This document shows, one piece after another, positions 40,017 to 45,360 of a stretch of 64,000 nt of DNA. A model generated the notes under the pieces. That model ran no database searches and was not told the DNA's origin. It worked only from the letters and a program-made list of their open reading frames with translations. This stretch comes from Chlorobaculum tepidum TLS. GTDB taxonomy: Bacteria > Bacteroidota > Chlorobiia > Chlorobiales > Chlorobiaceae. Each line of letters starts with the position of its first letter. Positions within the stretch are counted from its first letter, which is position 1. The stretch lies in assembly GCF_000006985.1 (NCBI RefSeq), contig NC_002932.3, positions 209,501 through 273,500 of the forward strand. Reading direction: 5' to 3'. A program made the translations under genes and the position numbers.

Positions 40017-40220
40017 ATGCTGAAATTCATTCTTCTCTTGATCGCCCTGTGGCTGGTTGTGCGTTTTTTGCGGCGTCTGATTGGTTTGACTTTTTTTGTC
40101 AGGAGCGATGATCGTATGGGGGGCGGCCTCTCATCGTTTTCTTCTTCCGCCGGACGCCAGGCGCAGGTTGAGGAGGCAGAGTATGAAGTGATCGACAGCC
40201 AGATCAAACAAAAGGAGTAA
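40017..40220 (+). CDS. Small membrane protein, DUF4834-like
   Basis: The 67-residue protein has an N-terminal hydrophobic helix (KFILLLIALWLVVRFLRR), then a Ser/Gly linker and an acidic VEEAEYEVIDSQ end. This layout matches DUF4834 proteins of Bacteroidota and Chlorobiota. The ATG at 40017 has GAGG seven bases upstream. A terminator-like hairpin follows within three bases. Function is unknown. Confidence 0.8.
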   Translation: MLKFILLLIALWLVVRFLRRLIGLTFFVRSDDRMGGGLSSFSSSAGRQAQVEEAEYEVIDSQIKQKE

Positions 40221-40222
40221 AA

Positions 40223-40246
40223 CGCGCAGATTGCGCGATAGTTTTT
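40223..40246 (+). terminator. Terminator after the DUF4834-like gene
   Basis: A 6-bp inverted repeat CGCGCA/TGCGCG (40223-40237, 3-base loop) is followed by ATAGTTTTT. It begins two bases after the stop codon and would end transcription of the small gene before the rimP leader. Confidence 0.65.
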
Positions 40247-40248
40247 GG

Positions 40249-40275
40249 TTTGTGTTCGATTTTTTTTATATATTG
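40249..40275 (+). promoter_or_regulatory. Possible promoter for the rimP-nusA operon
   Basis: TTTG (40249-40252) and TATATTG (40269-40275), 16 bases apart, resemble the minus-33/minus-7 elements of Bacteroidota-type promoters. The site lies between the terminator of the upstream gene and the leader hairpin, where a promoter would be expected. Chlorobiota promoters are poorly defined, so this is a weak call. Confidence 0.3.
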
Positions 40276-40316
40276 TAAGTCATTGGAGCACTAGTCTGTT
40301 AAAAGCAAAGTTTCTG

Positions 40317-40340
40317 AAAGTGGGGGATCCCCACTTTTTT
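40317..40340 (+). promoter_or_regulatory. Attenuator-like hairpin in the rimP leader
   Basis: A 9-bp stem AAAGTGGGG/CCCCACTTT with a 3-base loop is followed by a T run (40335-40340), a textbook intrinsic terminator. It lies 34 bases before the rimP ATG and downstream of a separate terminator for the previous gene. It would stop most transcripts before the operon unless read-through occurs. In other bacteria the rimP-nusA leader is a known control site; NusA feedback here is inferred. Confidence 0.75.
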
Positions 40341-40373
40341 GTTTTCGGAAATTCGAGCGAAGCAATTGATGCG

Positions 40374-40895
40374 ATGACGGATGATTTGATAAAGAAGGCG
40401 ATTGGCGAAACGATCGGTGAACTCTCTGCCACAAGCGGTGAAGAGATTTACGTTGTCGAAGCTGCCATTCGCGCGGGCGGCAGGAAAATCGAACTGACCG
40501 TCGATACCGACAAAGGGGTCAGCATCGATCAGTGTGCAAAGCTAAGCCGGGCCATCAGGGCGCGTCTTGAAGCGTGCGAAGAGGATAGCATGCTTTCGAG
40601 CGGAGAGTTCGATCTCATGGTTTCATCTCCCGGTATTGGCGAGCCGATCCAGGTGCAGCGTCAGTACTTGCGGCATCTGGGCCGTTTGATCCGGGTGAAC
40701 TACCTCGACGAAGAGGAGCAGCCGAAGGAGATTACGGGCAAGTTGCTCGAAGCCGCCGTCGGGCCCGAAGCCGAGCAGCCATCGATCACCATCGAAGCCG
40801 TCAAAGAGGGGCGAAAAAAGAGAACCGCCGGAGAGCCGCCGGTGACGATTCGCCTTGCCGATGTCGTCAGGGCGGTGGTGCAGACCGAGTTGTAA
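40374..40895 (+). CDS. rimP: Ribosome maturation factor RimP
   Basis: RimP helps assemble the 30S subunit. The 173-residue protein has IYVVEAAIRAGGRKIELTVDTDKGVSIDQCAKLSRAIRARLE and FDLMVSSPGIGEPIQVQRQYLRHLGR, the two-domain signature. The ATG at 40374 is preferred; earlier codons of the open frame would code through the leader hairpin. It is first in the operon rimP-nusA-infB-rbfA-truB-ribF-rpsO. Confidence 0.95.
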   Translation: MTDDLIKKAIGETIGELSATSGEEIYVVEAAIRAGGRKIELTVDTDKGVSIDQCAKLSRAIRARLEACEEDSMLSSGEFDLMVSSPGIGEPIQVQRQYLRHLGRLIRVNYLDEEEQPKEITGKLLEAAVGPEAEQPSITIEAVKEGRKKRTAGEPPVTIRLADVVRAVVQTEL

Positions 40896-40964: not shown

Positions 40965-42530
40965 ATGCCAAGAAAGCAGCTAAAGGGTGAAACTCATGAT
41001 CAGAAGGCGCAGATTGCCAGCGCTTTCGGAGAAATCGAGCAGTCGAAGATTTTTCTGGACAAGCGTTCCGAAAGCGCTGCTGTCAAGATGGATATTGCCG
41101 ACCTGCTCAAGGAGATCATCCAGAAACAGCTCAGGAAAGATTACGATCCCGAGGTGGAGTCCAATATCTTCATCAATCCCGAACGCGGCGATTTCGAGGT
41201 CTATATTCTGAAAAAAATCGTCAAAGAGGTCGATCTTCCCACTATCGAAATCGGTCTCGACGAAGTTCGCCAGATCGACGATTCGCTTGAGCTGGGTGAT
41301 TATTACGAGGAAGGGCCGATCAAGCTCGATGATTATCTGACCCGCAAGTCGATACAGATCATCAAGCAGTCGGTGCAGAAAAAGGTTCGCGATCTGGAGC
41401 GCCTGGCCGTGTACGAGGAATGCCTCGAAAAGGTCGGCGAGGTGGTGGCCGGTGAGGTTTACCAGGTCAGACCGAACGAGGTGATTTTTACCTACAATAC
41501 CTCCAAGGATCATCGTGTGGAGCTGGTGCTGCCGAAGTCGGAAATGATGAAGAAGGACAACCCGCGCCGCACGCCGCGTATGAAGTTGTACGTCAAGCGC
41601 ATCGAGCGCGAGAAGGTCAAGGTGCGAAACGACGACGGCACCGTTGAGGAGCGAGAGAAGCCGGACGGCGGTATGAAGGTGATCGTTTCGCGCGTCGATG
41701 ACCGCTTCCTTTACAAGCTCTTTGAAAGCGAGGTTCCGGAGATTCTCGATGGTTTGATCGTCATCAAGGGCATCGCCCGCGTGCCGGGCGAACGAGCCAA
41801 GGTTGCGGTTGAATCGACCAGCTCGCGTATCGATCCGGTTGGCGCTACGGTCGGTTACCGCGGCAAGCGCATCCAGAGCATCGTCAAGGAGCTGAACAAC
41901 GAGAACATCGATGTCATCTACTACACCGACGAGCCGCAGGTGTTCATCGCCCGTGCGCTGCAGCCGGCCAAGATCGACCCGATGACCGTGCACGCCGACA
42001 TGAAGACCCGCAAGGCGCGCGTTATGCTCAAGCCCGACCAGATCAAATACGCTATCGGCAAGAACGGCAACAACATCCATCTGGCCGAAAAGCTGACGGG
42101 CTATGAAATCGACGTCTATCGCGACGTGATCGACAAGTCGCTCGAAGACCCGAACGACATCGACATCATCGAGTTCCGCGAAGAGTTCGGCGACGATATG
42201 ATCTACCAGCTGCTCGACGGCGGTCTCGATACGGCCAAGAAGATTCTGAAAGGCGGCGTCGAAAAAATCGAGGAGGCTCTGCTCGGCACGCAGAAGAGCG
42301 AAGAGCTGTTCGTCTTTAACAAGACTCGCAAGCCGGTCAAGCCAAAAGAGCGCCGGATCACCGACGACGAAAAGCGCTACTGGAAGAAGATCGCCGAGAC
42401 CATCTATCGCACCGTCAGGGAGCAGTTCAACGATGAAGATCTCAAGGCGCTTCTCGATGACAGCCATGAACGGTCGCTCAAGGGCGACGGGATCGATCCG
42501 GAAGAGATTCGGGACAAAGAAACAAACTGA
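40965..42530 (+). CDS. nusA: Transcription termination/antitermination factor NusA
   Basis: NusA binds RNA polymerase and modulates pausing and termination. The 521-residue protein has the N-terminal polymerase-binding domain, an S1 domain (GEVVAGEVYQVRPNEVIFTY) and two KH domains (KGIARVPGERAKVAVES and IKYAIGKNGNNIHLAEKLTGYEIDVY). The C-terminal acidic repeats of E. coli NusA are absent, as in many bacteria. It follows rimP by 69 bases. Confidence 0.96.
   Translation: MPRKQLKGETHDQKAQIASAFGEIEQSKIFLDKRSESAAVKMDIADLLKEIIQKQLRKDYDPEVESNIFINPERGDFEVYILKKIVKEVDLPTIEIGLDEVRQIDDSLELGDYYEEGPIKLDDYLTRKSIQIIKQSVQKKVRDLERLAVYEECLEKVGEVVAGEVYQVRPNEVIFTYNTSKDHRVELVLPKSEMMKKDNPRRTPRMKLYVKRIEREKVKVRNDDGTVEEREKPDGGMKVIVSRVDDRFLYKLFESEVPEILDGLIVIKGIARVPGERAKVAVESTSSRIDPVGATVGYRGKRIQSIVKELNNENIDVIYYTDEPQVFIARALQPAKIDPMTVHADMKTRKARVMLKPDQIKYAIGKNGNNIHLAEKLTGYEIDVYRDVIDKSLEDPNDIDIIEFREEFGDDMIYQLLDGGLDTAKKILKGGVEKIEEALLGTQKSEELFVFNKTRKPVKPKERRITDDEKRYWKKIAETIYRTVREQFNDEDLKALLDDSHERSLKGDGIDPEEIRDKETN

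Positions 42531-42615: not shown

Positions 42616-45360
<2,745 letters not shown>

Follow-up and report, generated by a model that had tools for sequence, protein, structure and literature searches.

Naville and Gautheret (2010; PMC2965389) described the rimP-leader, whose stem has the conserved form GGGc(...)gCCC and whose likely reader is NusA, as the most ubiquitous attenuator. In B. subtilis, NusA is reported to stimulate attenuation of its own operon (Mondal 2016, cited in PMC12288461), control by NusA of its own operon has been reported in E. coli (PMC6511841), and a terminated leader has been mapped before rimP-nusA-infB in S. agalactiae (PMC4448216). Here, we analyze a 64,000-nt stretch (the window) of the Chlorobaculum tepidum TLS genome, which is a single contig of 2,154,946 bases, and find a terminator hairpin just before rimP (positions 40316-40338 of the window, + strand). 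We propose that this hairpin is probably the form that the rimP-leader takes in Chlorobiota, where an intrinsic terminator would stand inside the rimP-nusA-infB 5' UTR, with a putative NusA step. The rimP-leader being known from earlier work, the Chlorobiota hairpin is a new, well-supported member of it. This reading places Chlorobiota and, by sampling, most of the wider phylum in the most widespread attenuator family described.

Compared with the general form of the rimP-leader (PMC2965389), the C. tepidum element occupies the same 5' UTR, has a G-rich 5' arm and a C-rich 3' arm with conserved letters, and consists of a terminator hairpin followed by a T-run. The T-run is separated from the rimP ATG (40374) by 33 nt, as against 4-130 nt to the gene in the published form, and alignment and folding reveal, as there, neither a larger conserved structure nor an antiterminator. 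The two differ at the inner pair, which is G-C here (GGGG/CCCC) instead of the published GGGc/gCCC while GGG/CCC is shared, and in the near-invariance of the Chlorobiaceae stem within its family. The S. agalactiae leader (gbs0413-gbs0418; PMC4448216) is also a short leader before rimP-nusA-infB, for which NusA feedback was proposed; there, short and long RNAs were mapped by RNA-seq, whereas our description is drawn from sequence. The B. subtilis nusA attenuator likewise sets a terminator ahead of rimP, and Bacillales share the core GTGGG...CCC(A/G)C. The Bacillales stem, however, is longer (GAGTGGG) and its U-tract poorer (TCTTTCGT, versus a T6 with one G here), and a NusA effect is reported for B. 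subtilis (PMC12288461), where that on the C. tepidum leader is putative.

The gammaproteobacterial rimP leader (Rfam RF01770) belongs to the same operon and also has a terminator before rimP, but it carries a second upstream terminator with a possible antiterminator. We found no counterpart of that tandem upstream terminator, CCCg(...)cGGG, in C. tepidum, where the hairpin further upstream reads CGCGCA/TGCGCG and is unconserved. Nothing in the window reaches the RF01770 gathering threshold, while with the same library the leader of E. coli scores 102 bits, and neither strict nor permissive Rfam searches returned a credible family at the hairpin site. Since the Rfam release used has only the gammaproteobacterial form RF01770, standard annotation misses the Chlorobiota leader. 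Our literature searches on C. tepidum RNA ends and on Bacteroides rimP returned no useful paper.

Anatomy of the proposed rimP leader in C. tepidum

The leader hairpin has the form GAAAGTGGGG-GAT-CCCCACTTTT, with nine Watson-Crick pairs and a closing G-T, and we assign it on the basis of its fold, a strict intrinsic-terminator rule, and family conservation. The T-run that follows (TTGTTTTC) has six T at 40335-40340, the first of which also pair with the 5' AAA. The wider T-tract (TTTTTTGTTTTC, 40335-40346, + strand) is interrupted by one G and, as the alignment of the family shows, is conserved along with the stem; it is the predicted region of RNA 3' ends. The fold is worth -14.0 kcal/mol (z -3.0) and was equalled by 2 of 200 shuffles. 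An initial annotation of this DNA had described a perfect 9-bp stem with T6 just before the rimP ATG, and that description is accurate. Under the strict rule, this is the sole passing hairpin in the 64-kb window (1-64000); in 80 kb from each of three relatives, the same rule passes 6-8 hairpins per 80 kb, with the rimP hairpin among them in 3 of 3. Most gene ends in the 64-kb window seem to be without canonical intrinsic terminators, and because the rimP hairpin alone lies above threshold, the comparison of the window's terminators across relatives is without a comparator. Folding of the leader showed no competing antiterminator or other polymerase-releasing alternative. An outer stem in a 125-nt fold (GUUUCUG/CGGAAAU) fits close relatives, but by eye it does not fit a second genus and is not claimed here.

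Downstream on the + strand, the hairpin is followed by rimP (40374-40895; PF02576, PF17384), nusA (40965-42530; PF08529, PF13184), which encodes the candidate regulator, infB (42616-45360; PF11987, PF04760), rbfA and truB. Pfam confirms the identities of RimP, NusA, IF-2, RbfA and TruB, in agreement with the earlier rimP-nusA-infB labels.

A conserved promoter-like block, TTTG-N20-21-TACATT, whose last hexamer directly follows a T-tract, is found about 45 nt ahead of the stem. A strict pattern is matched by 39 of 43 relatives, and the remaining four have variants. The local copy comprises TTTG at 40244-40247 and TATATT at 40269-40274 (both + strand; the latter is TACATT in most relatives), and the putative promoter TTTG/TATATTG (40269-40275 for its downstream half) that had been suggested between two hairpins coincides with this block. 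Our guess is that the transcript starts ~7 nt past TATATT; taken from there to the start of rimP, the predicted 5' leader spans 40281-40373 (+ strand). The family alignment contains no conserved block between the promoter-like element and the stem.

The small gene upstream (40017-40220) lies on the same strand as rimP and ends ~95 nt ahead of the leader hairpin. Its 67-aa product had been called DUF4834-like, a label that lacks Pfam support: we found no match to DUF4834 even at E up to 10. The hairpin just past this gene (40223-40237, + strand) had been taken as the gene's own, with a T-run, and as the first of two tandem terminators. A 6-bp stem (CGCGCA/TGCGCG) does exist there, but it folds only modestly (-8.9 kcal/mol, z -1.3), 23 of 200 shuffles doing as well, and its T-run begins 4 nt past the stem (ATAG-TTTTT). 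It lies outside the conserved element, and among the relatives whose leaders were compared, the closest one (L002; RimP 97% identical) shares it and L003-L006 and beyond lack it. Given the missing conservation and the displaced T-run, we reject this hairpin as a first terminator, and the tandem layout is not a conserved arrangement.

Conservation of the leader hairpin

The initial annotation had staked its reading in part on conservation of the stem in relatives, and the Chlorobiaceae bear this out strongly. Searching with RimP identifies rimP in 79 of 86 genomes of the family, and the leader hairpin stands just before rimP in 79 of these 79, one hairpin per rimP. For the exact pattern AGTGGGG-N1-5-CCCCACTTTTT we counted 77 copies, spread over 76 of the 86 genomes, whereas the reversed control gave zero. 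All 75 copies on rimP-bearing contigs are upstream, on the same strand, and 14-58 nt from the projected rimP start; the other two are on contigs without a rimP match, and the sole genome with two copies has two rimP matches as well. Elsewhere in the rimP-bearing Chlorobiaceae genomes this pattern does not occur, and the five that lack it altogether (G149, G102, G028, G114, G185) carry a variant hairpin at the same position.

Across the family the loop is variable (GAT, TAT, ACT, GTT, CTTT and others) and the arms are nearly invariant. The rare arm changes each affect one side of the stem (A to G on the 3' side, and one G to T), so that within Chlorobiaceae the letters are kept, and not pairing alone. 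RimP identity falls to 36% across the same set, and in these alignments the leader stem is held far tighter than the RimP protein. One Chlorobiaceae genome that is 99% complete (G145) has neither a RimP match (E <= 0.001) nor the leader hairpin; either loss or an assembly gap would account for this.

Beyond the family, the order's other families carry GTGGG...CCCAC and a T-run ahead of rimP, and the spacer between the arms ranges from 3 to 8 across the order. We sampled 90 genomes of the wider phylum: 43 Chlorobiaceae, 6 members of the order's remaining families, and 41 genomes from outside the order. In 81 of the 90, a terminator-like hairpin lies no more than 220 nt upstream of the RimP match, where dinucleotide shuffles lead one to expect 1.5. 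Outside the order the count is 32 of 41; there the stem letters differ (GGGGAC/GTCCCC, GGGAAC/GTTCCC and others), and the hairpin and T-run are retained. Nine genomes (L074, L079, L083, L088, L091, L103, L106, L107, L120) keep the hairpin beside a divergent upstream gene, whose products are Pfam-recognised, and in these genomes the hairpin therefore cannot be that gene's terminator.

Proposed termination and read-through, and alternative readings

We propose that transcription of the operon would start just past the promoter-like block ending at 40274, and that the GUGGGG/CCCCAC stem would form once ~60 nt of leader had been made. As the anatomy of the leader suggests, RNA polymerase would then either stop in the U-tract near 40340 or read through into rimP, nusA and infB. 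Since no competing antiterminator fold is seen, the fraction of read-through most likely depends on a protein that acts at the hairpin, a termination factor being the natural choice. The best candidate is NusA, which the operon's second gene encodes: by analogy with B. subtilis and E. coli, more NusA may cause more termination and hence less operon RNA. On this analogy, NusA feedback on the C. tepidum leader is plausible, and given a better U-tract than that of Bacillales, termination may depend less on NusA here.

On another reading, the hairpin would simply terminate the small gene upstream, and rimP would be served by another promoter. That gene's strand and its end ~95 nt before the hairpin would suit this reading, yet we consider it very unlikely: the promoter-like block sits between the gene and the hairpin, only ~33 nt separate the hairpin from the rimP ATG, the hairpin stays near rimP throughout the family, and it is retained beside the divergent genes of the nine phylum genomes. 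Its fixed place, the promoter-like block, the divergent upstream genes and the match to the published rimP-leader argue instead for an attenuator of rimP-nusA-infB, as the initial annotation had suggested. Still harder to credit is a double-stranded DNA operator, in which a transcription factor would bind the dyad AAGTGGGG-N3-CCCCACTT. Such a site would account for a near-perfect dyad with invariant arms and a variable spacer in the family, but a strand-specific T-tract is conserved alongside the dyad, the spacer length runs from 3 to 8 in the order, and outside the order the letters differ while the hairpin and T-run persist.

A constitutive attenuator that merely lowers operon output, without NusA feedback, deserves more weight than either of these, and we nevertheless regard it as doubtful. 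The terminator looks strong unaided, and the absence of a visible antiterminator fold is likewise in keeping with a fixed effect. Near-invariant stem letters around a free loop suggest, however, that the stem is read by something, and NusA feedback is reported for the homologous B. subtilis leader (PMC12288461). Our preferred reading remains a rimP-leader terminator at which NusA would act.

Stem letters in other lineages

Of 80 Bacillales genomes, 71 have the core GTGGG...CCC(A/G)C ahead of rimP (0.15 expected); the 80 are mutually related and count as one clade, not as 80 independent cases. A covariance model based on Chlorobiales alone recovers many Bacillales leaders, with a best E of 6e-4 and most matches weak. 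Model R1 misses several members of the order's other families because alignment A2 omits some longer-loop sequences. A B. subtilis-like NusA query was used purely as a probe.

We raise as a tentative possibility that a protein, either NusA or RNA polymerase itself, directly recognises the stem letters GUGGG/CCCAC, and that these constitute a sequence-specific termination signal common to Bacillota and Chlorobiota, in which some Bacteroidota families may have changed the letters or swapped the G-rich arm. The invariant stem and freely varying loop make the question of what reads these letters directly testable.

Several further features were observed ahead of rimP in these genomes. Nine Bacteroidota relatives (L081, L085, L090, L098, L101, L107, L108, L112, L115) have a hairpin of reversed polarity before rimP, with a C-rich 5' arm and a G-rich 3' arm, examples being AGTCCCGCC...GCGGGACT and GCGCCCG...CGGGCGT. 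Eight Bacillales genomes (L163, L188, L195, L198, L200, L204, L209, L212) have an extra terminator-like hairpin in the same leader region, which in several of them is CCCTTGCC...GGCAAGGG followed by a T-run. In a Bacillus genome, a match to the group II intron family RF00029 (L166:609-704) lies upstream of the rimP region.
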